From the NCBI GenBank assembly GCA_021404565.1, contig JAAWWF010000010.1, positions 124,001 to 188,000 on the forward strand: DNA of 64,000 nt, written 5' to 3'. Below are positions 39,779 through 64,000 of the stretch, one piece after another (position 1 is the stretch's first letter; each line of letters starts with the position of its first letter). The position numbers and the translations under genes were made by a program. This DNA is from Roseivirga sp. (GTDB taxonomy: Bacteria > Bacteroidota > Bacteroidia > Cytophagales > Cyclobacteriaceae). The notes beneath the pieces are model-generated. The model searched no databases and had not been told where the DNA came from. It saw nothing but the letters and a program-made list of their open reading frames with translations.

Positions 39779-40177
39779 TTAACCCGCTGACACCGGAGTA
39801 AAAAGGTCAAAGAACACCACCGCATCGTCAAAGTCATTATCTGTGCCATCTTCACTATCTACAGAAACATGCAGGTGTCCACCGGCTTCACAATATATGG
39901 GTGCGTTGACTTTGCTCGGTTCACCGTTATTATGATTAATTTCTACTTCAAACGTAAGTTCCCGGGTCTTGTGCTGCGAGATGTCAATACTCGCTTCCCC
40001 GAAGCGAATGTTATTTTCGGATCCGGCTTCTTTCACAAAACTACCCTCGTACCCTATCTGGCTACAAGAAACTTTGACTTCTTGTGCGTCTTGGGCAAAA
40101 AAGGAAAAAACATTAAGATAAAGGGTGTTCCTGCTGGCTGCACCAGGCGTAATCACTACTGATTGCATATTTGACAT
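39779..40177 (-). CDS. LecB/PA-IIL-like calcium-dependent lectin
   Basis: 132 residues, no signal peptide. The C-terminal loop VSVDSEDGTDNDFDDAVVFF closely matches the calcium- and sugar-binding loop of Pseudomonas LecB (SEDGTDNDYNDAVV), which holds two calcium ions. The preceding strands (LTFEVEINHNNGEPSKV) align with LecB as well. LecB binds fucose and mannose and uses a C-terminal Gly from the partner subunit; this protein also ends in Gly (TPVSAG) but with a longer tail. An N-terminal extension of about 20 residues is present. ATG 40177 is preferred since it keeps a constant distance (21 nt) to leader copy A. Confidence 0.8.
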   Translation of the reverse strand: MSNMQSVVITPGAASRNTLYLNVFSFFAQDAQEVKVSCSQIGYEGSFVKEAGSENNIRFGEASIDISQHKTRELTFEVEINHNNGEPSKVNAPIYCEAGGHLHVSVDSEDGTDNDFDDAVVFFDLFTPVSAG

Positions 40178-40198: not shown

Positions 40199-40262
40199 CC
40201 TACTCTCTTCTGGCTTTTTCGCAACCGCTAAAGCTATCAGCGAACGCGGTCGGCTCCCGGCT
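40199..40262 (-). promoter_or_regulatory. Structured leader element, copy A (lectin gene)
   Basis: On the minus strand, from 5', it has the small stem CGG-GAG-CCG, the inserted hairpin with arms around GCTGATAGCTTTAGC and CGC/GCG, then AAAAAGCC and the tail GAGAGTAGG, ending 21 nt before the ATG. It lacks the 5' AAGTGG hairpin and the covarying stem found in copies B, C, D, F and G. It is therefore a 3' half of the element. Confidence 0.7.
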
Positions 40263-54989: not shown

Positions 54990-55011
54990 GGTCGCAGCGG
55001 ATGCCGCGACC
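54990..55011 (+). terminator. Hairpin after purL
   Basis: GGTCGC (54990-54995) pairs with GCGACC (55006-55011). GTCGCAGCGG recurs in the terminator at 55810-55842. The T-tract is weak. Confidence 0.45.
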
Positions 55012-55095
55012 AGTTTGGAAGTTTATTGGTACTAATTGACTAGCCTTAGCATTTCGTTCAGACCGGTCTAAGATGTAAATTGATAGCTACTAATC

Positions 55096-55503
55096 CTAAG
55101 ACGGGTTAACTGAAACAATGAATGGATCGAATGTCATAAGGTGTTTCCCATTCAGCAACAATACCATGCTATATTGTGCATTAGTAGCTGCTTGATTGAC
55201 ATGGCCTCCCCAAACACTTCCATCAAACTGAGGATATGGTGCCGGGTTGATAAGATCAGGAATAGTTGTACCAATGCTTGTGAATGAATGAATTGCTACA
55301 TCCTGAGTCGGATCAATTGAAACAACCCGCCAAACAATCGTGTCACCATTGGTAACATGGGTCACGAGTTCATTGGTACCTTCAGAATGATTCTGAGTAC
55401 CACTACTATCATTGCTATCCATCATGAAAACATATGGAGGTAAATTGTTGTTGTTAATCGCTGCTGAAACGTTAACTGCGACTAGAATATTGACTTGTGC
55501 CAT
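55096..55503 (-). CDS. AidA/PixA-like inclusion-body family protein
   Basis: 135 residues without signal peptide. The pattern VNILVAVNVSAAI at the start, GDTIVWRVVSIDPTQDVAIH in the middle and LLLNGKHLMTFDPFIVSV at the end matches the AidA/PixA family. In that family a WRxxS strand and a closing strand ending WDPFI are conserved. PixA of Xenorhabdus forms cytoplasmic inclusions. This protein is shorter than PixA and lacks some of its middle. Leader copy B ends 20 nt upstream of the start codon. Function outside inclusion formation is unknown. Confidence 0.7.
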   Translation of the reverse strand: MAQVNILVAVNVSAAINNNNLPPYVFMMDSNDSSGTQNHSEGTNELVTHVTNGDTIVWRVVSIDPTQDVAIHSFTSIGTTIPDLINPAPYPQFDGSVWGGHVNQAATNAQYSMVLLLNGKHLMTFDPFIVSVNPS

Positions 55504-55523
55504 TTGATTTTACTTTTAATCTA

Positions 55524-55607
55524 CCTACTCTAAAAGGCTTTTCGGTTTCCGCCTTTCGCATAACTCGCGAAAAAAGTTCGTTTTTTATAGTGAGTTCTGC
55601 TCCACTT
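55524..55607 (-). promoter_or_regulatory. Structured leader element, copy B
   Basis: On the minus strand, in order: hairpin AGTGG-AGCAGAAC-TCACT (one G-U pair), linker TATAAAAAACG, stem TTCGC-GAGTTAT-GCGAA, AGGCGGAAACCG with stem CGG/CCG, AAAAGCC, and tail TTTTAGAGTAGG. It ends 20 nt before the ATG at 55503. The variable stem differs in sequence from the other copies but pairs perfectly. Upstream, 55608-55809 shows no gene. Confidence 0.8.
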
Positions 55608-55809
55608 CAAATATTCGATAGCACTAAGTTGATAATCAGACCACTAGAATTTGAGAGCAGAAATGCGGAAAAAAGAAAAAGGCGTAGAAATACTTAGGTA
55701 AGATTTTGAATTGTTAATCTGCTGATGATGAGACAGCTGCAGCAATACAATGGGTCCCGGTTTTTACGGATGAGAGGCAAAGAGGGTATGAATATGCAGA
55801 TTTTAGATA

Positions 55810-55842
55810 AAAAAAAATGTCGCAGCGGGTGCTGCGACATTT
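55810..55842 (-). terminator. Strong terminator of the gene at 55860
   Basis: AAATGTCGCAGC (55815-55826) and GCTGCGACATTT (55831-55842) form a 12-bp stem. On the minus strand it is followed by a run of T. Confidence 0.85.
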
Positions 55843-55859
55843 CTTAAATTCAAAAGTAT

Positions 55860-56189
55860 TTATTTTGTATTCTTCGCTACATTTGGCCCCATGCTAGAAT
55901 TTGTAACTAACCTGCAAAAACTTACGTAAGGGCCATTAACGGGTGCTTCAGCACCACGGGCACAATGCCAACCAGTACCCCATGGAAGCCCTGTGTCCCA
56001 CTCATTACCGTTAGTGTCCCAAGTCCATTTTGCCAAATCAGTATTAGCGGGTTTTTCAGGAAAACTGTTTCCATTGTATACAAAAATCTGTCCTTGCTGA
56101 TCGCGAAAAGGAGAATTTGTACTCCATTTAAGCCATAAATTACCGTGGTTTTCGTAGGCCTCTAGAGACCATTCAAAATTATCTGTCAT
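55860..56189 (-). CDS. Small Trp-rich protein of the leader-linked group
   Basis: 109 residues without signal peptide, with many Trp and Gly residues. NLWLKWSTNSPFRDQQGQIF and LPWGTGWHCARGAEAPVNG are the most distinctive parts. It looks like a compact beta-sandwich, and the tryptophan pattern would suit a sugar- or lipid-binding surface. I do not recognise a named family. Leader copy C ends 23 nt upstream of the start, and a strong terminator follows the stop. Confidence 0.65.
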   Translation of the reverse strand: MTDNFEWSLEAYENHGNLWLKWSTNSPFRDQQGQIFVYNGNSFPEKPANTDLAKWTWDTNGNEWDTGLPWGTGWHCARGAEAPVNGPYVSFCRLVTNSSMGPNVAKNTK

Positions 56190-56212
56190 TTCTTAATATT
56201 TGTTATGCTTCA

Positions 56213-56296
56213 CCTACTCTTAAGGCTTTTCGGTTTCCGCCTCTGTGATTAACCCCACAAAATGGCTCGTTTTTTAAAGTGGGTCCTGCTCCACTT
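56213..56296 (-). promoter_or_regulatory. Structured leader element, copy C
   Basis: On the minus strand: AAGTGG-AGCAGGAC-CCACTT hairpin, TTAAAAAACG, variable stem TTTGTG-GGGTTAAT-CACAGA (five Watson-Crick pairs and one G-U), GGCGGAAACCGAAAAGCC and tail TTAAGAGTAGG. It begins 43 nt after the stop of the upstream gene and ends 23 nt before the ATG at 56189. Confidence 0.8.
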
Positions 56297-56339
56297 AACT
56301 ATCGATTTCTTTAAGCGATTATGCTTTCCAGGCATTCGA

Positions 56340-56699
56340 TTAGCACTTGCCAAAAGTCTGATTGACCACTGTAACTCCTCCAATCTCGACAGATACACGA
56401 ACACCCGTAGGAATACCCCAGGTAGTGCAAATATTGAGACATGCTTTTCCTGCAGTACCATTGGGAATAGAAAGAGGAATGCTAATGCACTTTGAACCAA
56501 GGCCAAGAGGTAAATTGACACATACATGGTTATTCTCTACCGTAACAGAAACACATTGAGCAAAAAGGCTAATTTCACCACCATGTGTTAAATCAAATTC
56601 TGTGCTTTTTGCGATTGCAGAAGTGCGTTGTCTGTTTCTTTCAGCAGCCTCTAATGCATCAGAAATTGCTTTTTCATCAAATGAATAATACTTAGACAT
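56340..56699 (-). CDS. Small cysteine-rich protein of the leader-linked group
   Basis: 119 residues. An N-terminal charged helix (KAISDALEAAERNRQRTSAI) is followed by a beta-rich segment with six cysteines (FAQCVSVTVENNHVCVNLPL, GKACLNICTTWG, NQTFGKC). There is no export signal, which is odd for a protein with so many cysteines. The leader-like N-terminal helix could be a delivery or precursor region. I do not recognise the family. Leader copy D ends 21 nt upstream. Confidence 0.6.
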   Translation of the reverse strand: MSKYYSFDEKAISDALEAAERNRQRTSAIAKSTEFDLTHGGEISLFAQCVSVTVENNHVCVNLPLGLGSKCISIPLSIPNGTAGKACLNICTTWGIPTGVRVSVEIGGVTVVNQTFGKC

Positions 56700-56720
56700 A
56701 ATATTAAATCAGTTTTATCA

Positions 56721-56804
56721 CCTACTCTTAAGGCTTTTCGGTTTCCGCCTCTGCGATCGACCCCACAGAAGGATTCGTTTTTTAAAGTGGGTTCTGCTCC
56801 ACTT
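56721..56804 (-). promoter_or_regulatory. Structured leader element, copy D
   Basis: On the minus strand: AAGTGG-AGCAGAAC-CCACTT hairpin, TTAAAAAACG, variable stem TTCTGTG-GGGTCGAT-CGCAGAG (with G-U pairs), GGCGGAAACCGAAAAGCC and tail TTAAGAGTAGG, ending 21 nt before the ATG at 56699. Confidence 0.8.
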
Positions 56805-56907
56805 GCTCTACTCTTTATCGGATTTTCGAGAAACTCCGGTCGTTGATATACCTTATTGACATACCAAAATTGTCTTATTTAAAACCCAATAAATCGTATA
56901 GAATCAG

Positions 56908-57744
56908 CTATAGCATTGCATCTTGATGCATAAGGTGATTTCGTAACCAAGACAGGAATTCTTCTTTACGATTTTGGTGCCTGTAAGCGGAGGGAGAGGT
57001 ATGAAATATCAGCTTAAAGGCACGACTTAGATGAGCCTGGTCAAAAAAACCAGCCTTATGGGCGATCTCTCCAATTAGTCGACAGGTACTACTTAATAGC
57101 TCGGCCGCATACAATAGACGTAAGTATAGTAATAGCCTCATGGGAGTCACTTGCAAATGTGTTTTAAGATCGCGCAGTAACTGTGAAGGGCCAATACAAA
57201 GCCTGTCTGCCAAATAGTTCAGGGATAGGTCTTCATTTCCGATATCGGCTAATACAATTTGGAAAAGGCTGGTAATTCTTGGGTGCTGAGGCAGCATTCG
57301 TTCCAGTCCCTGTACCATTAGAGGTGTAGGAGGCATGGTCCAGGAGACTCTGGTATTTTCGAAATTCGATCCTGCCGGAGCATAGTCGGAAGGACTACAT
57401 TTGAACTCTTTATTAAATGCCCTCCAAAATGAAGGATAGTTTTGAAAGCCTGTCATAATGGCAATGTTCTTTACAGGTTGACCACCCTTCCTTAGCAATT
57501 CCAGTGCAAGACTGAGTCGTTTATAAAGGATATACTTACCAGGAGAACGCCCAAGAAGGTAGGTTGATTTACGTGTAAGTTGTGCCCGGCTTAGCTTTAA
57601 CACATTCGCCAATACCGCTACGTCAAACTGAGGATCGTTCAATCTTCTTAAGACCGTAACTTCCAGCTTTTCAAGAAAATCTTTATCAGCACTCGAGCAT
57701 ACGGCTCTGATCACCAAATTTGGTGCTGTTTGAATTGGTAACAT
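56908..57744 (-). CDS. Regulator with two tandem AraC-type DNA-binding domains
   Basis: 278 residues made of two AraC HTH modules and little else. Module 1 (about 25-125) contains LANVLKLSRAQLTRKSTYLL and IMTGFQNYPSFWRAFNKEFK with the closing SPSDY. Module 2 (about 165-262) contains LADRLCIGPSQLLRDLKTHL and HKAGFFDQAHLSRAFKLIFH with the closing SPSAYR. A normal AraC protein has one module plus a sensor domain; none is present. It lies among the leader-linked genes on the same strand and is a candidate regulator of them. Confidence 0.85.
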   Translation of the reverse strand: MLPIQTAPNLVIRAVCSSADKDFLEKLEVTVLRRLNDPQFDVAVLANVLKLSRAQLTRKSTYLLGRSPGKYILYKRLSLALELLRKGGQPVKNIAIMTGFQNYPSFWRAFNKEFKCSPSDYAPAGSNFENTRVSWTMPPTPLMVQGLERMLPQHPRITSLFQIVLADIGNEDLSLNYLADRLCIGPSQLLRDLKTHLQVTPMRLLLYLRLLYAAELLSSTCRLIGEIAHKAGFFDQAHLSRAFKLIFHTSPSAYRHQNRKEEFLSWLRNHLMHQDAML

Positions 57745-57982
57745 GGATTGAGGTTTTGAAGCGACCCGGGCAGGCTGTTCTATTCCAATTCCTCATTTAA
57801 AAGGGGGCAATAGTCAAGTAGGGCAAAATCCTGCCTGAGAATCGCCTGACTAAATCAGTAAGGGTGAGAGATGAGGTGCAGACTGATTTTAAGGAGAAAT
57901 TGAACCTTAGTGCGGTAGACCAGGGTCGCAGGTTGAAATTTACTATTGGGATATATCCCTGATTCTTATCAGAATCGGCTTC

Positions 57983-58261
57983 TTAGAGCCAGGAATAAGA
58001 CCATTCCTCAATCTCTTCATAGATCTCAAAAACCGAAATCCAATCAGGAGGACAAGCCCCCGGTTCATCAAAGTTTTGAGAGTTCAGAGTATGATTTTCC
58101 CATGTAATCAGCGAAGGTTCATTGTTATCAATGGCTTTCCGGAGTTTTGGTACATCGTACTGGTCCTGAAAAGCAAGGCGTCTTGGCAAGTACGGGGAGT
58201 TGTTAAGTTTTCGACCCTTTGAAGGTTCAGATATCAGAGTTCTCTTTGTTTTGGCAGACAT
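57983..58261 (-). CDS. Small protein of the leader-linked group
   Basis: 92 residues: a basic, Pro-containing N-terminus (TLISEPSKGRKLNNSPYLP), then ACPPDWISVFEIYEEIEEWS and an aromatic end YSWL. There is no signal peptide. ACPP also occurs near the C-terminus of the gene at 38778-39602. I do not recognise the family. Leader copy E ends 21 nt upstream. The 238 nt between its stop side and the AraC gene show nothing recognisable. Confidence 0.55.
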   Translation of the reverse strand: MSAKTKRTLISEPSKGRKLNNSPYLPRRLAFQDQYDVPKLRKAIDNNEPSLITWENHTLNSQNFDEPGACPPDWISVFEIYEEIEEWSYSWL

Positions 58262-58282
58262 ACTATATGAAATGTAGTTTTG

Positions 58283-58332
58283 CCTACTCTCTTGGCTTTT
58301 CAGCTGCCGCCTCTATCTTTTCCTGATAGAAA
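58283..58332 (-). promoter_or_regulatory. Structured leader element, copy E (3' half)
   Basis: On the minus strand: variable stem TTTCTATC-AGGAAAA-GATAGAGG (six Watson-Crick plus G-U pairs), small stem CGG-CAG-CTG, AAAAGCC and tail AAGAGAGTAGG, 21 nt before the ATG at 58261. The 5' AAGTGG hairpin is missing. The stem shares no sequence with the other copies but keeps the pairing. Confidence 0.7.
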
Positions 58333-58561
58333 GGATTAATATTATTTTCATTTCCTTTTATCTGTAATTCAATATTTTTAAATAAAATTAACAATATTGA
58401 TTACTAATAAATTACATTTCAATTTGACTCGTATCGACTCTGGAAAATTGTATGAGATCGGCTAGTGACTAACCAAATGTCGCATAGAGCGACTCTGTAT
58501 GACTGTCGGTAGTAGCCATTGTATTTAGGAGGGCCATAACCAAATCCGAAAATTTGAAATG

Positions 58562-58623
58562 CTATAAACGAAAACACCTCCCGGCTATGAGCCAAGAGGT
58601 GTTTTGTATAGCTACGTTTATAG
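58562..58623 (-). terminator. Long hairpin after the FG-GAP lipoprotein gene
   Basis: CTATAAACG/CGTTTATAG form an outer stem and AAAACACCTC/GAGGTGTTTT an inner stem, with a GGCT/AGCC core. It lies 15 nt after the stop of the gene at 58638. The sequence 58333-58561 is AT-rich without a gene. Confidence 0.75.
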
Positions 58624-58637
58624 ACGAAGGGGCAAAA

Positions 58638-60476
58638 CTAATTCTGCTGCCCAAGCCAAAGCACATCCGGAGCCCCACCAATTGCTATGTAGACATCAAT
58701 ATCTCCATCCCTATCAAAGTCACCAGAGGTAAGTCCTCCGCTATTGGAACTCCCAAAAGGCTGACTACTATGGGTGAAGTTACCATTCCCCCCATTCCAC
58801 CATAGTGTATGAGGTTGACCGTTTCCTGTTACGGTAAGTGCATCAAGATCTCCGTCAAGGTCAAAGTCCACCAGAATTACATCGTTAATCTTGCTATTCC
58901 CCAGGCCCTGCCCGCTTACTGTAAAGGTTCCGGTTCCATCGTTGAACCAGATTTTGATAGGCTCCTGATCGGTTCCTACAAAAGCATCTAAGTCTGAATC
59001 TCCATCCAGGTCGGCTAAAACGACTTCCAAACTTTTGTCATTACCAACTGATTGTCCACCATCAGTAAAGTTCGCAGCACCATCATTAAAGAATACCAGA
59101 TCTGGTCTTCCTACAGTAGGCCCTGAGTTAGCAACGAAAACATCCAGATTTCCATCACCGTTCAAATCTCCGAGGGATACATCGGAGGCTTCCAGGCTTC
59201 CCGTTATTTGTGCTACTTCCGTAAATACACCATTTCCATCATTCAATAGAATTGGCAGGTTGTAGTAATCCACTATAATGGCATCCAAATCACCATCGTT
59301 GTCGAGATCTCCCAATTCCACACCATTAGTGGCTACGTTACCAAAGGCCTGACCGGAGTCGGTGAAATTTCCAGCTCCATCATTCAACCAAACTGTGTTG
59401 GGCTGTTCACTCCAGTTTGTAATAAATGCATCCAGATCACCATCACCGTCAAAATCCCCCAGTTCCACATCAGTGGAGGGAAATGTACCTACAGGTTTTA
59501 TCTCAGGGTAACTTCCCGTACCGTCATTGATCAGTACTTCCGTCACCTGGCTGTTAGTTCTGGTAATAAAAAGGTCGTCATACCCGTCACCGTTCAAATC
59601 ACCGGATTTAACGCTGGCCGCACTAAGGTTACTGAAGACTTCACCACTATTTATAAAACTGAGGCTGGGCATCGGAACTACACTCTGAAGCACAACCTCC
59701 AACGGATCATTAGCAAATGCCTTTAAGCCTGCATTGGTATAGTCCTCAGATACGCTAAAACCAGCTTTTTCTATCACGAGCCTGTAGTCAACTCCGTCTT
59801 CCACCGCAATAGCATTCGTAGAGTCACCCAATTGGCCATTATAGAGGTCATTCTGTGTACCCTGTTCATAAATAGTCAGTGCAGCCGTGGTGGGTACGAG
59901 CTTTTGAGCCGTTTCATCGTAAGCAAAAGCAGTGATCAAAAAGCTGAAATGCTCAACAATATTAAATTGGAAAGTAGCGTAACCAAAGGCGTCTGGCGTA
60001 AATTCCTCCGTATCAATTACCTCTGGCACCACCTGTGTGGTCTGGTCAGTTGTAATAATAAAATCAATGGGCAGCGGATCATTTACAAGGTGAGCATATT
60101 CTGAACCCTCTATGGGGGTTGCATAAATCACCTCACCCTGATCGTTCAACACCAAAAATTCGGTTAGCTGATAGTTACCCGGGTTCAGCGACAATGGCTC
60201 TCCTGCCAGTGTACCGGAGAAATTGAAGAGTTCAATTTGCTCCTGGTCATAAACTACATTCCCCTGATCATCCTCAATAGTCACTATCAGGCTTCGTGCA
60301 TCTTCGTATGCTTCAGCTCCAGCGGCATTACCCCGGTTTCCCTCATCAGGATCATTGAGGCTAAATTGTACTGCTCCGGGTACCTGCTCATCCGGATTTC
60401 CTTCATTGTCTTGACAGCCATAAAGGCATAATAGAGCGACCATAATCAGGCCGCAGGTTTTAGTAATCGTCTTCAT
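58638..60476 (-). CDS. Lipoprotein with seven FG-GAP/VCBS repeats
   Basis: 612 residues. The lipoprotein signal ends at LYGCQDNEGNPDE. A Bacteroidota-type N-terminal beta domain (AVQFSLNDPDEGNRGNAAGA, ARSLIVTIEDDQGNVVYDQE) covers about residues 35-265. The rest is seven repeats with calcium-binding DxDxDGxxD loops, for example DLNGDGYDDLF, DFDGDGDLDAF, DLDNDGDLDAI, DLNGDGNLDVF, DLDGDSDLDAF, DFDLDGDLDAL and DFDRDGDIDVY. Seven units fit a closed integrin-like propeller. The protein is probably at the cell surface and binds calcium and perhaps glycans or proteins. Confidence 0.9.
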   Translation of the reverse strand: MKTITKTCGLIMVALLCLYGCQDNEGNPDEQVPGAVQFSLNDPDEGNRGNAAGAEAYEDARSLIVTIEDDQGNVVYDQEQIELFNFSGTLAGEPLSLNPGNYQLTEFLVLNDQGEVIYATPIEGSEYAHLVNDPLPIDFIITTDQTTQVVPEVIDTEEFTPDAFGYATFQFNIVEHFSFLITAFAYDETAQKLVPTTAALTIYEQGTQNDLYNGQLGDSTNAIAVEDGVDYRLVIEKAGFSVSEDYTNAGLKAFANDPLEVVLQSVVPMPSLSFINSGEVFSNLSAASVKSGDLNGDGYDDLFITRTNSQVTEVLINDGTGSYPEIKPVGTFPSTDVELGDFDGDGDLDAFITNWSEQPNTVWLNDGAGNFTDSGQAFGNVATNGVELGDLDNDGDLDAIIVDYYNLPILLNDGNGVFTEVAQITGSLEASDVSLGDLNGDGNLDVFVANSGPTVGRPDLVFFNDGAANFTDGGQSVGNDKSLEVVLADLDGDSDLDAFVGTDQEPIKIWFNDGTGTFTVSGQGLGNSKINDVILVDFDLDGDLDALTVTGNGQPHTLWWNGGNGNFTHSSQPFGSSNSGGLTSGDFDRDGDIDVYIAIGGAPDVLWLGQQN

Positions 60477-60650
60477 CGTGTTCTTAGATTTTGGTGAGTA
60501 AATGCAGGATGAGAGGTGTAATTACCTTCCCTCCATCAATTAAAAAATTGACCAAAGATTACGGGCCCTTCTTCGGTCTCAAAGAACTTTGATAAGGCTA
60601 AGTTGAGGGATACAATGAACAGATTTATGAGCTGAAATGCCCAAATCAAA

Positions 60651-60666
60651 AAACAGGTAGAAATAC
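60651..60666. repeat. Second copy of the AAACAGGTAGAAATAC box
   Basis: Identical over 16 nt to 39677-39692. It lies in the divergent gap 60477-60775, between the FG-GAP lipoprotein and the decarboxylase genes. The palindrome is imperfect here (GGTA-GAAA-TACT). Nothing else in this gap is recognisable. Confidence 0.4.
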
Positions 60667-60775
60667 TCACAATCAAGAAGAAATTACCCCAGCAACTTTT
60701 ACAGCTTATTCCTTAACTTCAGTCTGATCTTAGAAAATTTAAGTCTGAGACAACCTATAACCAAACACAGTAAAA

Positions 60776-62086
60776 ATGAGACCATCAAACCCAAAATGGC
60801 CCAAAACTACCAAGGCCTACAAACAGCTCAAAAAACAGATAGAAAAAGATGAAAAATTTGCCAGGGCACTGGAAGTGTCCTTGCTGGTAGCACAGCAAAA
60901 AGCCTGGAGCCAGCTGAATCCGGATTTATACCATGCCCTGGATGATGAATTTGGTGGTGGTGGTCAGGGCTGGCCCGACTCTCCCCAGGCCTATCTGGAC
61001 TACGTAGAAAAGTACCTGGTGCTGGTACCCAATGAGGAAGACGATCCTGACTACCCTGAAGCCTGGACCAGCAATGACGAACAAAACGGCTATAATCAAA
61101 AAGTCTATGATTTACTATGCCAATTCTATTTCCTGGTAGATCAGCCGGCACCCACCATTGAAGGAACACTGCAGAATTACAAAAACGGCAACTTTAAGTT
61201 CTCAGATTGGCTGGACCAGTTTGCCATAGCTTGGGGGAAATTCCTTAACACCGATGAATCACTTACCACCAGAACATTGGCCTCCTTTATTGCCGACCCC
61301 ATGTATAACATGGACTGGTATATTGATGGTGCCAAACACTGGAAATCATTTAATCAATTCTTTTACCGTGAATTCAATGGAGCTGATAAAAAGACAGGGC
61401 GTAGTCCTCTCCGGCCCATTGGAGAACCTGGGAATAACAATGCCATTGTATCTCCGGCAGATTGTACCTACAAAATGGAATACCCGATCAATGAAAAGGG
61501 AGATGTGCTGGGCATCAACGGTAAGCCCACGAGCCTGAAACTTAAGAATACCCACTCGGTATATACCGTAGCAGAGCTATTAGATGACAAGAAGCTGGCA
61601 AAGCACTTTCATGGCGGCACCTTTGTACATTACTTCCTCAGCCCTTTTGATTACCATAGATTTCACTCTCCGGTAGATGGTAAGGTAATGGAATGCCGTA
61701 AAGTGAGAGGCAAAGTATACCTGGATGTAAACCTTACTGGCGATGGGCAATTTGATGCACCCGACAGCTCTGAGGGAGGCTATGAATTTCAACAGGCACG
61801 TGGCGTATTTGTGGTAGATGCCGGTAAACCTTTGGGTATGGTAGCGGCTATTCCCATAGGTATGGCCCAGGTTTCTGGCGTAGACATGTACACTAAAAAG
61901 CTGGAAGGAAAGCATGTTCAGAAGGGTGACGAGTTCGGGAAGTTTATGTTTGGAGGATCTGATATTATCCTGCTCTTCCAGAAAAACCCGCATCTCTACT
62001 TATGGAAGAAAGACCCCTCGCATAACCCTATCCATTTTCAATACGGCCAGGTAAGTGCTTATTGGGATGTGAATAAGCAGATTTAG
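60776..62086 (+). CDS. Phosphatidylserine-decarboxylase-family protein, PsiD-like
   Basis: 436 residues, no membrane segment. Residues of about 1-180 form an N-terminal helical domain like that of the fungal tryptophan decarboxylase PsiD. The catalytic part has SFNQFFYREFNG, AIVSPADCTYKM, YFLSPFDYHRFHSPVDGKVM and KFMFGGSDIILLF. The Ser of GGSD would become the pyruvoyl group after self-cleavage; classical enzymes have GST and PsiD has GSS. The pattern resembles PsiD more than membrane-bound Psd. The likely reaction is decarboxylation of a free amino acid. A terminator follows. Confidence 0.82.
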   Translation: MRPSNPKWPKTTKAYKQLKKQIEKDEKFARALEVSLLVAQQKAWSQLNPDLYHALDDEFGGGGQGWPDSPQAYLDYVEKYLVLVPNEEDDPDYPEAWTSNDEQNGYNQKVYDLLCQFYFLVDQPAPTIEGTLQNYKNGNFKFSDWLDQFAIAWGKFLNTDESLTTRTLASFIADPMYNMDWYIDGAKHWKSFNQFFYREFNGADKKTGRSPLRPIGEPGNNNAIVSPADCTYKMEYPINEKGDVLGINGKPTSLKLKNTHSVYTVAELLDDKKLAKHFHGGTFVHYFLSPFDYHRFHSPVDGKVMECRKVRGKVYLDVNLTGDGQFDAPDSSEGGYEFQQARGVFVVDAGKPLGMVAAIPIGMAQVSGVDMYTKKLEGKHVQKGDEFGKFMFGGSDIILLFQKNPHLYLWKKDPSHNPIHFQYGQVSAYWDVNKQI

Positions 62087-62093
62087 AAACAAC

Positions 62094-62127
62094 AAAGCCC
62101 GCAGAGAATGATCTTTGCGGGCTTTTT
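62094..62127. terminator. Bidirectional terminator between decarboxylase and lectin genes
   Basis: AAAGCCCGC (62094-62102) pairs with GCGGGCTTT (62117-62125) and is followed by TTT. It ends the plus-strand gene and lies 5 nt from the stop of the convergent lectin gene. Confidence 0.85.
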
Positions 62128-62131
62128 CTAA

Positions 62132-62464
62132 TCAACTGTTTGTATTGGTCGCCCAAACGGCAACAGGTTGGTAAATAACCACATTACCATCGTCTTGTAC
62201 AATCAGATAGGCACCGTTCTTTCCAGCCGTATTACTAGCCCATAATACTTCACGATCGTTATAACCATAAAGTACACAGTTGCCATCCTCTTGCATCACA
62301 CACTCTTTCGCAGCACGTCCTGCCGTGTTTGTTGCCCATAGATATCCTTCACTATTATAAAGCACCAGGTTTCCATCGTCTTGCAAGATAAGTCGGTACT
62401 TTCCATTCTGTGATTTGAGCTGCTTACCTCTCTCAAGTAGCTGCCCAGGTAATAATCTGTCCAT
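62132..62464 (-). CDS. Bulb-type (GNA-like) mannose-binding lectin
   Basis: 110 residues without signal peptide. Three sugar-binding QxDxNxVxY units are visible: LQDDGNLVLYNSEG, MQEDGNCVLYGYND and VQDDGNVVIYQPVA, each followed by WATNT or WASNT. This is the beta-prism II fold of snowdrop-type lectins, seen also in bacterial lectin-like bacteriocins. Three intact sites suggest binding of alpha-mannose. The N-terminus (MDRLLPGQLLERGKQL) is typical. Leader copy F ends 18 nt upstream. Confidence 0.92.
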   Translation of the reverse strand: MDRLLPGQLLERGKQLKSQNGKYRLILQDDGNLVLYNSEGYLWATNTAGRAAKECVMQEDGNCVLYGYNDREVLWASNTAGKNGAYLIVQDDGNVVIYQPVAVWATNTNS

Positions 62465-62482
62465 GATATTTGTTTTTCATCC

Positions 62483-62600
62483 CCTACTCTCTAAGGCTTT
62501 TTCGCAACCGCTAAAGCTTTTAGCGAACGCGGTCGATTTCCGCCTCCCGAGGATAACCTCTCGGGAAAGGCCGTTTTTTTAAGTGGGTTCTGCTCCACTT
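62483..62600 (-). promoter_or_regulatory. Structured leader element, copy F (118 nt, with extra hairpin)
   Basis: On the minus strand: AAGTGG-AGCAGAAC-CCACTT hairpin, AAAAAAACGGCC, variable stem CCCGAG-AGGTTATC-CTCGGG, CGGAAATCG, an inserted hairpin (CGC and CGCTAAA arms with a 3x3 internal loop), AAAAAGCC and tail TTAGAGAGTAGG. It ends 18 nt before the ATG at 62464 and begins 75 nt after the previous stop. Confidence 0.85.
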
Positions 62601-62675
62601 TTCAAGCCGGGTTAGACATAATTGCTTAATTCCGAACTGAATTTCACATTGAATTTATAGATGTATGTCCAGTGT

Positions 62676-63065
62676 TTATTTCCATAAACAGCCAAGGTCG
62701 ATACGCCCATTGAAAAGGTGTTGAAGTGTCAGAATAGTAAAACCATCGACCTTTAGCTTTGCCGTAGGTTTAATACCAGCACAATCCCATTTACTCAGGG
62801 AGATCATAAGGCCTGAATCCTCTCCAAGATTTCCAGGAATCTCGATTTGGGTATGAAAGTCTTCGCAAAGTTTGAATGGACAATACCAATTTTCACCCTC
62901 ATACTGAACATTCAAAAAGTGTATGCCAGGTGTTATAATCCATTGAATCTTACCAATAGTCAGTTTTAGAGGCTTTGCATTAAACTCTAATTGTTTCTCC
63001 CAACAGATCGCACTCGGAAACGAGGGTCCCTGGTTCACATCATTTTTGTTTTCTTTTTTAGACAT
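62676..63065 (-). CDS. Beta-rich protein of the leader-linked group
   Basis: 129 residues without signal peptide. After a polar N-terminus (MSKKENKNDVNQGPSFPS), strands alternate regularly (KQLEFNAKPLKLTIGKIQWI, LNVQYEGENWYCPFKLCED, PTAKLKVDGFTILTL). Four cysteines are present. The fold could be a beta-sandwich, but I recognise no family. Copy G ends 17 nt upstream, and copy F lies between it and the downstream lectin gene. Confidence 0.6.
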   Translation of the reverse strand: MSKKENKNDVNQGPSFPSAICWEKQLEFNAKPLKLTIGKIQWIITPGIHFLNVQYEGENWYCPFKLCEDFHTQIEIPGNLGEDSGLMISLSKWDCAGIKPTAKLKVDGFTILTLQHLFNGRIDLGCLWK

Positions 63066-63082
63066 GTTTGAATTTTTAATTT

Positions 63083-63200
63083 CCTACTCTCTAAGGCTTT
63101 TTCGCAACCGCTAAAGCTTTTAGCGAACGCGGTCGGTTTCCGCCTCCCGAGGATAACCTCTCGGGAAAGGTCGTTTATTTAAGTGGGTTCTGCTCCACTT
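63083..63200 (-). promoter_or_regulatory. Structured leader element, copy G (118 nt, with extra hairpin)
   Basis: Nearly identical to copy F. Among the differences are CGGAAACCG instead of CGGAAATCG and AAATAAACGACC instead of AAAAAAACGGCC. The change in the small stem turns a G-U pair into G-C, so the structure is kept. It ends 17 nt before the ATG at 63065 and begins 40 nt after the previous stop. Confidence 0.85.
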
Positions 63201-63240
63201 TCAAAGTCTTTCGTTCGGCCTCTGGCCGAAGCCATAGCAG

Positions 63241-63558
63241 TTACTCACGCCATGGTCCTGTACTTAGAGCAACAAAGCAAAAGGGCCTTTTCAGATGGCA
63301 TCCGGCAACATTTTGAATAGACACCTCAAATGAATTTTTGCTTCGCTTGCTCAATGAAATAATGGGCGGACTACACTCTTTCTCAGAGGAATCACAGCTC
63401 AGGAGGACAATAGGTGCTGACTTAAAAAAACCACTTCTGCACTCTACGGAATAGGTTTTTTTCCCCTCTTTATAACTACTCTTAAAATTTTCACCGTTGA
63501 CAGGGTTACCATCCCTTCCTACTCTCCCAACAATTGCTTTACGGGCATTATTTTCCAT
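63241..63558 (-). CDS. Beta-rich protein of the leader-linked group
   Basis: 105 residues. IVGRVGRDGNPVNGENFKSS, KTYSVECRSGFFKSAPIVLL and FEVSIQNVAGCHLKRPFCFV follow the pattern of small beta-sandwich modules found at phage fibre tips and in secreted adhesins (GxVxxDGxxxxGxGF...Y.V.F...F...P.V). Four to five cysteines are present and there is no signal peptide. I give no family name. A diverged 5' leader (copy H) lies about 100 nt upstream. Confidence 0.55.
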   Translation of the reverse strand: MENNARKAIVGRVGRDGNPVNGENFKSSYKEGKKTYSVECRSGFFKSAPIVLLSCDSSEKECSPPIISLSKRSKNSFEVSIQNVAGCHLKRPFCFVALSTGPWRE

Positions 63559-63654
63559 TTTTATTCAGGGTTATTGTTTTTAAATCTCTGCTCTTTTCAA
63601 TAGCCAGCGGCAAAGGGCTAATGCTCTACACAGGCATGATTAAAAAGTCAGTCC

Positions 63655-63683
63655 CGTTTTTTTCAAGTGGGTTCTGCTCCACC
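63655..63683 (-). promoter_or_regulatory. Structured leader element, copy H (5' hairpin only)
   Basis: On the minus strand GGTGG-AGCAGAAC-CCACTTGAAAAAAACG keeps the 5' hairpin, its exact loop and the A-rich linker. Downstream, two unrelated hairpins (ATGC/GCAT and TAGCC/GGCTA) replace the usual variable stem and tail. Confidence 0.6.
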
Positions 63684-63796
63684 TCTATTAGTTTTTCTGA
63701 TACTAATTTGAGCAAGGGATAAGAGTATTGTTAGAGGTAGATCACCCTAAAAGTGAATAGGGCTAAATCGCTCTTTCAGATTTTGATATAAAAACA

Positions 63797-63874
63797 AAAA
63801 GACCGTAGTGAAACACTACCGTCTTTTCCAAGAGTTTCGGACAAACTAAAGAGACTCCCGGTCAGGCCGGGAGT
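63797..63874 (-). terminator. Two hairpins after the edge LuxR gene
   Basis: AAAAGAC-C-GTAGTG/CACTAC-C-GTCTTTT (63797-63827) and ACTCCCGG/CCGGGAGT (63854-63874) lie just 3' of the stop at 63883. The first has a C-C mismatch and ends in a T-run on the minus strand. Confidence 0.65.
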
Positions 63875-63882
63875 GACATTTC

Positions 63883-63999
63883 TTACTCCGGCAAAAAACC
63901 CTTGCGTACCGCTTCCATAATCAGCTTGGCGGTATTATGTACATTAAACTTCTGTAAGAGGCTGGTGCGATGCCCATCTACTGTACGGGTGCTGATAAA
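63883..63999 (-). CDS. C-terminus of a NarL/LuxR family regulator (5' end outside window)
   Basis: The last 38 codons of a gene entering from the right edge. FISTRTVDGHRTSLLQKFNV is the recognition-helix half of a LuxR HTH, and the end reads NTAKLIMEAVRKGFLPE. It resembles the corresponding part of the regulator at 36560-37207 (FISPRTAEGHRRHLIEKLGV), so it is probably a response regulator. Its receiver and kinase partner lie outside the window. Confidence 0.85.
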   Translation of the reverse strand, partial: FISTRTVDGHRTSLLQKFNVHNTAKLIMEAVRKGFLPE

Positions 64000-64000
64000 A

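Follow-up and report, generated by a model that had tools for sequence, protein, structure and literature searches.

A cluster of small genes in a Roseivirga genome raises the question of what kind of RNA recurs just upstream of their start codons. The stretch analysed (contig JAAWWF010000010.1 of assembly GCA_021404565.1, positions 124,001 to 188,000; 64,000 nucleotides (nt), hereafter the window) had been described, in a sequence-only reading, as carrying seven copies (A-G) of a structured leader and an eighth, partial one (H), which together formed a covarying functional RNA whose plan matched no Rfam family. We recovered all seven copies on the minus strand, with tails of sequence GAGTAGG 17-23 nt before an ATG, and confirmed that copy H retains a hairpin and linker and has no core (P1 63667-63682; gene start 63558). 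The leaders are cis-acting RNAs of the DUF805/DUF805b clan in an extended, pseudoknotted form that lies outside the description of both Rfam models. The P1 hairpin, both helices of the pseudoknot and the core stem covary beyond shuffled, slid, permuted and swapped controls, in agreement with the proposed cis-acting RNA. However, four copies exceed the DUF805b cut-off and the DUF805 model has the same order of parts, which rules out a new RNA family; what survives the Rfam matches is the extended pseudoknotted variant.

A clan leader in extended form

The copies and their parts are listed below by position in the window, with the pseudoknot helices a/a' and b/b' in brackets and, last, the distance from the tail to the ATG of the next minus-strand open reading frame (ORF).

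40199..40261, minus strand: copy A leader, a core variant with the loop insert of F and G, P1 missing; tail 40199-40205; 21 nt
55524..55605, minus strand: copy B leader, DUF805b 42.0 bits (cut-off 35.6); P1 55590-55605, linker 55579-55589, pseudoknot 55554-55578 (AACT/AGTT, TTCGC/GCGAA), core 55536-55553, tail GAGTAGG 55524-55530; 20 nt
56213..56294, minus strand: copy C leader, DUF805b 38.7 bits; P1 56279-56294, linker 56268-56278, pseudoknot 56242-56267 (GCC/GGT, TTTGTG/CACAGA), core 56224-56241, tail 56213-56219; 23 nt
56721..56802, minus strand: copy D leader, DUF805b 38.7 bits; P1 56787-56802, linker 56776-56786, pseudoknot 56750-56775 (ATCC/GGGT, CTGTG/CGCAG), core 56732-56749, tail 56721-56727; 21 nt
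56808..56838, minus strand: degenerate DUF805b-like core and tail directly upstream of copy D, 22.3 bits, below cut-off (E 0.028)
58283..58335, minus strand: copy E leader, P1 missing, DUF805b 38.2 bits; pseudoknot 58312-58335 (TCCT/AGGA, TCTATC/GATAGA), core 58294-58311, tail 58283-58289; 21 nt
62483..62598, minus strand: copy F leader, DUF805 28.3 bits (below cut-off 51.1); P1 62583-62598, linker 62572-62582, pseudoknot 62545-62571 (GCCT/AGGT, CCCGAG/CTCGGG), core with loop insert 62495-62544, tail 62483-62489; 18 nt
63083..63198, minus strand: copy G leader, DUF805b 23.4 bits (below cut-off); P1 63183-63198, linker 63172-63182, pseudoknot 63145-63171 (ACCT/AGGT, CCCGAG/CTCGGG), core with loop insert 63095-63144, tail 63083-63089; 17 nt
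63655..63682, minus strand: copy H remnant, P1 hairpin and linker without core; 31.4 bits with R1, our model of the extended form

Scanned at its own cut-offs, Rfam places DUF805b (RF02914, clan CL00115) at 55522-55555, 56211-56243, 56719-56751 and 58281-58313, in copies B, C, D and E. A permissive scan of 39000-64000 adds G (DUF805b) and F (DUF805, RF03081, of the same clan) below the cut-offs, and no family outside the clan at E up to 1. Because G scores below the cut-off and no DUF805b match is listed for F or A, only B-E are assigned to DUF805b. These four share with the family a 4-bp core stem (with one mismatched outer pair in E), a loop ending in CCGAAAA and the tail GAGUAGG. Rfam types DUF805b as cis-regulatory and models it with 35 positions and a single 4-bp stem. 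P1, linker and pseudoknot are absent from this model, whereas the extended copies of the window have all three; copies F, G and A differ from it by an insert in the core loop.

The DUF805 model, whose layout we took from its alignment to a strong relative, runs from P1 (GUGGAG..CAG..CCAC) through the linker AAAAACG and the core (GGC..CCGAAAAGCC) to the tail GAGUAGG. Copies B, C, D, F and G follow this order, from the P1 hairpin and A-rich linker to the GGC/GCC stem and the tail. Yet the linker directly joins the core in the model, whereas a pseudoknot of 25-27 nt lies between them in these five copies. Due to this inserted module, no copy is formally a DUF805 RNA: the cut-off of 51.1 bits is reached by none, the best of the five matches in the genome (up to E 1) being copy D with 34.3 bits. 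Thus, three forms can be distinguished: a hairpin-less form (core and tail), a compact form (P1, linker, core and tail) and the extended form of the window.

Individual words of the leader are less telling than their arrangement. The sequence GGCGGAAACCG occurs, with at most one mismatch, at five sites, all on the minus strand (55543, 56231, 56739, 62534 and 63134), against 0.51 expected, and no shuffle reached five. Five of the six P1 sites carry AGCAGAAC (copies B, D, F, G and H), which copy C replaces with AGCAGGAC; copy F reads GGCGGAAATCG. The bare 8-mer AGCAGAAC and the tail GAGTAGG are not very rare on their own (6 in the window versus 2.05 expected, and 10 versus 5.19, respectively). 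The fixed order of the two, rather than either word alone, is the unusual part.

Crossing helices between linker and core

A stem-loop of variable sequence between constant flanks had been proposed for the middle of the leader. The quoted stems are indeed present, paired and variable (that of copy D includes one G-U pair), but they do not form a standalone stem-loop. The module between linker and core has four strands in the order a, b, a', b', of which b/b' make up the variable stem and a/a' a helix that crosses it. The variable stem is therefore half of an H-type pseudoknot, whose second stem directly adjoins the core stem. We dropped the simple stem-loop in its favour given the pairing and covariation of the crossing helices.

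Three comparisons support the pseudoknot. In an alignment of nine rows (A2), 92% of the cells of the complete structure are paired, versus 80% after shuffling and 36-52% after sliding, and both sides have changed at three of the four pairs of helix a. One G/A change in helix a separates copies F and G and keeps the pairing to U; the second helix of these two pairs only partly in A2 because MAFFT places it one column off. Of 19 extended copies given to a rule-based search, each compared with 300 mononucleotide shuffles, 17 had the pseudoknot (p 0.003-0.007 each); L070 and L089 did not (p 1.000), and these two also lack the helix in the permutation set and pair by eye over 3 + 3 bp only. Furthermore, we kept b/b' and swapped the a' side among 21 copies in 5000 rounds. 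Helix a reached at least 4 bp in 18 of the 21 (permuted mean 10.3, maximum 16) and at least 3 bp in every one, and its summed score of 216 was above all 5000 permutations (mean 142, maximum 195), a contrast that corrects only partly for relatedness, since the copies are not independent and ACTG/CAGT recurs in related ones.

The permuted copies come from the window (B-E), other genera of the family (L252, L256, L263 and L300-L302), Aquirufa (L018 and L043), a Fluviicola metagenome-assembled genome (MAG; L119) and other families. They were drawn from 30 places, namely copy E and 29 of 36 model matches, after exclusion of seven: the repeats L292 and L241, the remnant H, the compact elements L297:11497, L299:11365 and L298:2986, and the weak match L297:11427. 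The core pattern failed at five of the 30 (F, G, L299:12892, L280 and L283), which leaves F and G represented in A2 and outside the permutation. Also dropped were L070 and L089, L285 (a sub-threshold helix) and L298:11206 (a repeat).

The helices shared with the compact form covary as well. P1 occurs as GTGG/CCAC, ATGG/CCAT, GTAG/CTAC, GCGG/CCGC, TTGG/CCAA and ATAG/CTAT, among others, with pairing required for detection. Across a 53-row DUF805 alignment, 91.3% of cells are paired in P1 and 100% in the core stem, and three of four P1 pairs and all three core pairs have changed on both sides; these counts lean towards the two stems because the rows were found by a model that holds them. The rows comprise 52 Rfam hits and one mis-set row and leave out L158-L162 (below cut-off) and L169 (at a contig end). 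In this compact form, 19 cells have changes on both sides versus 5.0 when shuffled, and the covariation score of 0.144 (shuffled 0.092) was matched in 0 of 500 shuffles. When 249 elements were anchored on loop and tail only, 27 had a 3' core strand other than GCC, and 23 of these had the matching 5' strand, compared with a mean of 11.3 and a maximum of 17 with swapped partners. The linker CGG could also pair with the loop CCG in the compact form, where 89.5% of cells are paired and a both-side change affects one pair in one sequence. This makes a pseudoknot there a possibility.

The core hairpin itself is conserved, with a stem such as GGC/GCC and a loop ending in CCGAAAA, behind an A-rich linker that ends in ACG. 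The loop end CCGAAAA and the tail GAGUAGG are the most conserved parts of the element. In 128 exact cores, 3 to 13 nt separate core and tail, and this variation suggests that a partner would probably read loop and tail separately.

Copies F, G and A share a 32-nt insert inside the core loop that B-E do not have. This region (A 40212-40261, F 62495-62544, G 63095-63144) could form a second pseudoknot or a nested hairpin, and simple folding predicts the latter. We rejected the second pseudoknot (ACCGC/GCGGT with TTCGC/GCGAA), which was drawn by eye from three related copies and has no covariation.

Position before the start codon and mode of action

The position of the element was measured in 241 elements with at least 200 nt downstream, counting ATG-started ORFs of at least 38 codons. 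An ATG lies 15-32 nt downstream in 204 of the 241 and 5-60 nt downstream in 223. The other side and strand yields 4 and 20 of 239, respectively, and random sites on the same strand (n=2460) have an ATG at 15-32 nt in 8.5% of cases and at 5-60 nt in 25.6%. Median distances from tail to ATG are 20 and 22 nt. Covariation and position thus support the fold of the RNA, the sense direction in which it is read and its location with respect to the start codon.

Because its crossing helices covary, the element probably acts as RNA; duplex DNA would not be expected to have two such helices. A signal at the DNA level would be a promoter or regulator site, for example for the AraC-type regulator encoded within the cluster (56908-57744), or a recombination site that shuffles gene cassettes. 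The presence of that gene fits such a signal, as do leaders F and G, which differ at 3 of 116 positions while neither their flanking DNA nor, by BLASTP, the proteins behind them align with each other. This near-identity suggests that the leader moved, was copied or was converted as a unit. However, the variable core-tail gap does not fit the fixed two-box spacing of a promoter or sigma-factor site, the sense orientation before start codons argues for a transcript, and no integrase was found among 20 window ORFs given to Pfam, a part of the ORFs of the window. We consider a DNA-level signal very improbable.

The spacer between tail and ATG is composed of 52% A and 30% T (212 elements), with A peaks at -3 (70%), -6 (59%) and -11 to -13 (69-77%). 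These fit the start signal of Bacteroidia, described in the sections of PMC9976891 considered here as A at -3, -6, -12 and -13 on ribosomes that work without Shine-Dalgarno pairing, and indicate that the tail is placed just upstream of an A-rich translation start region. No terminator-like site lies between leaders B-G and their ATGs (scan of 55000-64000, copy A being outside), which argues against a transcription attenuator. Nor is a hairpin indicated that would sequester the tail: real spacers do not raise the pairing of the tail above the level of shuffled ones (0.346 versus 0.335 downstream; 218 elements), and we rejected the hiding hairpin. A pattern complementary to the tail has 11 matches in the genome, of which three are to the elements, versus 5 for the reversed pattern, and is uninformative; 16S ribosomal RNA has no match in this assembly.

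Some elements lie behind other genes. Where the nearest upstream ORF is on the same strand, 25 of 100 hairpin-less and 7 of 39 P1-bearing elements begin less than 60 nt past its stop codon; with a divergent neighbour this closeness occurs in 3 of 47 and 0 of 14, respectively. In the window, P1 of copy C starts 45 nt past the stop codon of the copy D gene. At such places the element probably acts on the next cistron within a shared message. Together with the missing terminator, the distance to the ATG and the start signals of the spacer, this placement favours translation or local message stability, and the evidence leans towards control at one of these levels. The balance tips just in favour of a local action on translation initiation, or message life, of the next cistron via a trans-acting partner, a mechanism that we infer. 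The partner could be an RNA-binding protein, a small RNA or the ribosome itself; it would read the conserved CCGAAAA loop and the GAGUAGG tail, and the pseudoknot and P1 would add a docking or stability module. One shared switch could in this way serve many unrelated genes for lectins, PixA, secreted peptides and membrane proteins.

Several observations weigh against this mode of action. Most of the hairpin-less elements (75 of 100) are not close behind a same-strand ORF, and all upstream counts rely on mechanical ORFs of at least 80 codons. Leader B and gene C probably do not share a message, since a strong terminator-like hairpin (55812-55845) lies between them. Simple folding largely pairs the tail (mean unpaired 0.38, in 120 of 212 elements), and the downstream gene families described below are too diverse to suggest a signal. 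Finally, TTG becomes more frequent upstream of P1: of 92 P1-bearing copies, 34 have it at -35 to -25 and 29 at -40 to -30, compared with 12-20 further upstream. Some leaders may therefore lie at the 5' end of the transcript, where a role in stability is equally possible. The TAnnTTTG promoter consensus is not enriched before either form (109 and 61 sequences), and sigma-70-like matches in 55000-64000 do not exceed those in shuffles (15 versus 17.7).

The rise in TTG, which suggests promoters about 30 nt upstream of P1, is what a stabiliser of the 5' end would predict, with the stack of hairpin and pseudoknot shielding the message end from nucleases. Alternatively, the stack could mark a site of cleavage between cistrons, consistent with the quarter of hairpin-less elements close behind another ORF. 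The direct abutment of pseudoknot and core stem suits either role. Stabilisation or processing alone leaves the conservation of the tail and its spacing of about 20-22 nt from the ATG unexplained, and we regard it as rather unlikely. More doubtful still is a ribosome-recruiting element, a small bacterial counterpart of an internal ribosome entry site, in which pseudoknot, core loop and tail would dock on the 30S platform beside the A-rich start region and sustain, in some particular condition, the translation of a set of proteins for defence, lectins and the envelope.

Genes behind the leaders and known systems

The genes behind the leaders of the window, with their Pfam matches, are as follows.

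39779..40177, minus strand: gene under copy A, 132 aa, fucose-lectin-like (PA-IIL), PF07472 E 8.9e-4, 20 bits, slightly below cut-off 21
55096..55503, minus strand: gene under copy B, 135 aa, PixA-like (inclusion body protein), PF12306 E 0.0028, 18.3 bits, below cut-off 21
55860..56189, minus strand: gene under copy C, 109 aa, no Pfam match at E 0.01
56340..56699, minus strand: gene under copy D, 119 aa, no Pfam match at E 0.01
57983..58261, minus strand: gene under copy E, 92 aa, no Pfam match at E 0.01
62132..62464, minus strand: gene under copy F, 110 aa, B-lectin-like (mannose-binding), PF01453 E 4.3e-7, 30.8 bits, slightly below cut-off 32.4
62676..63065, minus strand: gene under copy G, 129 aa, no Pfam match at E 0.01
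63241..63558, minus strand: gene after remnant H, 105 aa, start 63558, no Pfam match at E 0.01

Also in the cluster are a gene (58638-60476) that has no such leader and whose 612-aa product combines FG-GAP repeats with a lipoprotein-like start, and, on the plus strand, a phosphatidylserine decarboxylase gene (60776-62086). The latter family is also found under a clan leader in another genome (1 of 93 proteins).

We scanned 173 of 183 non-redundant proteins encoded downstream of the element elsewhere with Pfam, leaving out the four of the window on that list and six others. The 93 proteins mostly from DUF805 or R1 loci include DUF805 (8), PixA (4), AHSA1 (3), TM2 (3) and DUF1843 (3), and the 80 mostly behind hairpin-less leaders include DUF2589 (4), class I lanthipeptide leaders (4) and proteins with a type IX secretion system tail (3). 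Among the families listed (25 of 48 and 25 of 28), the commonest accounts for 8 of the 93 and 4 of the 80 proteins. In another genus of the family, an extended leader precedes a gene for a clear PixA protein (L301; E 9e-41).

The downstream genes share no one pathway or ligand. This speaks against a riboswitch of the metabolite type, though not against one that responds to a global signal. Under riboswitch action, binding of a small molecule or ion to core, pseudoknot and tail would control whether the start region is open or closed. A small and strongly conserved core is in keeping with such binding: with one letter left free, core and tail recur in at least 118 stretches of our genome collection, with 17 of the 18 core letters fixed in addition to the tail. 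The H-type pseudoknot and the location just upstream of the start codon would fit as well. The changing core-tail gap and the spacer folding, which indicates no simple sequestering hairpin and pairs the tail at the level of shuffled sequence, do not, and we judge a riboswitch unlikely.

By their names, we take 115 of the 118 stretches to be from Bacteroidota; the other three are presumably a Lysobacterales MAG (L077), Glaciecola amylolytica (L099) and a Chloroherpeton MAG (L086). In an even draw of 395 genomes from the phylum, DUF805b is found in 118 and DUF805 in 69. R1 matches 16 of these genomes and 14 of 196 from the family, which are upper limits for the extended form with P1 because R1 also matches compact copies weakly. 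In the Roseivirga genome, R1 matches are confined to the cluster of the window (6 including H), and DUF805b has 10 matches on six contigs. Beyond the window, the hairpin-less copies of this genome stand before genes for small proteins, several of which are, by eye, Cys-rich and begin with what resembles a secretion signal. For example, two hairpin-less copies about 280 nt apart precede tandem small Cys-rich peptides (L008), which are probably secreted and perhaps antimicrobial or signal peptides.

Elsewhere, one viral contig was matched, a 4.3-kb contig of a viral collection (L134) with core and tail near its end. On the chromosome of Glaciecola, which we take to be a gammaproteobacterium, core and tail precede a gene (L099, 5393-5758) whose product is identical at 91 of 121 residues to a counterpart in Flavobacteriales (L126). 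The shared element and the similarity of the products suggest that leader and gene were transferred together.

Both motifs were reportedly described by Weinberg and others in 2017. Our literature search, which did not cover the original description, found no published function for either RNA, and the parts of PMC9976891, PMC9723704 (including its promoter section) and PMC7366714 considered here make no mention of them. The two were thus already known as catalogued orphan RNAs across Bacteroidota; the pseudoknotted extended form that joins them is new here. This form yields clear mutational predictions for two crossing helices, the loop and the tail. If a role in translation holds true, the leaders would represent a control system, in bacteria without Shine-Dalgarno pairing, that is common to lectins, PixA-like proteins, peptide precursors and envelope proteins. 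The element could also serve as a portable leader to tune expression in Bacteroidota.

Among known leaders, those of the preQ1 and SAM-II riboswitches are built on an H-type pseudoknot. Unlike in these systems, the genes behind window-type leaders belong to no single pathway, and ligand binding is hypothetical here. What the window-type leaders have in common with preQ1 and SAM-II is a short, classical H-type pseudoknot close to the start codon.

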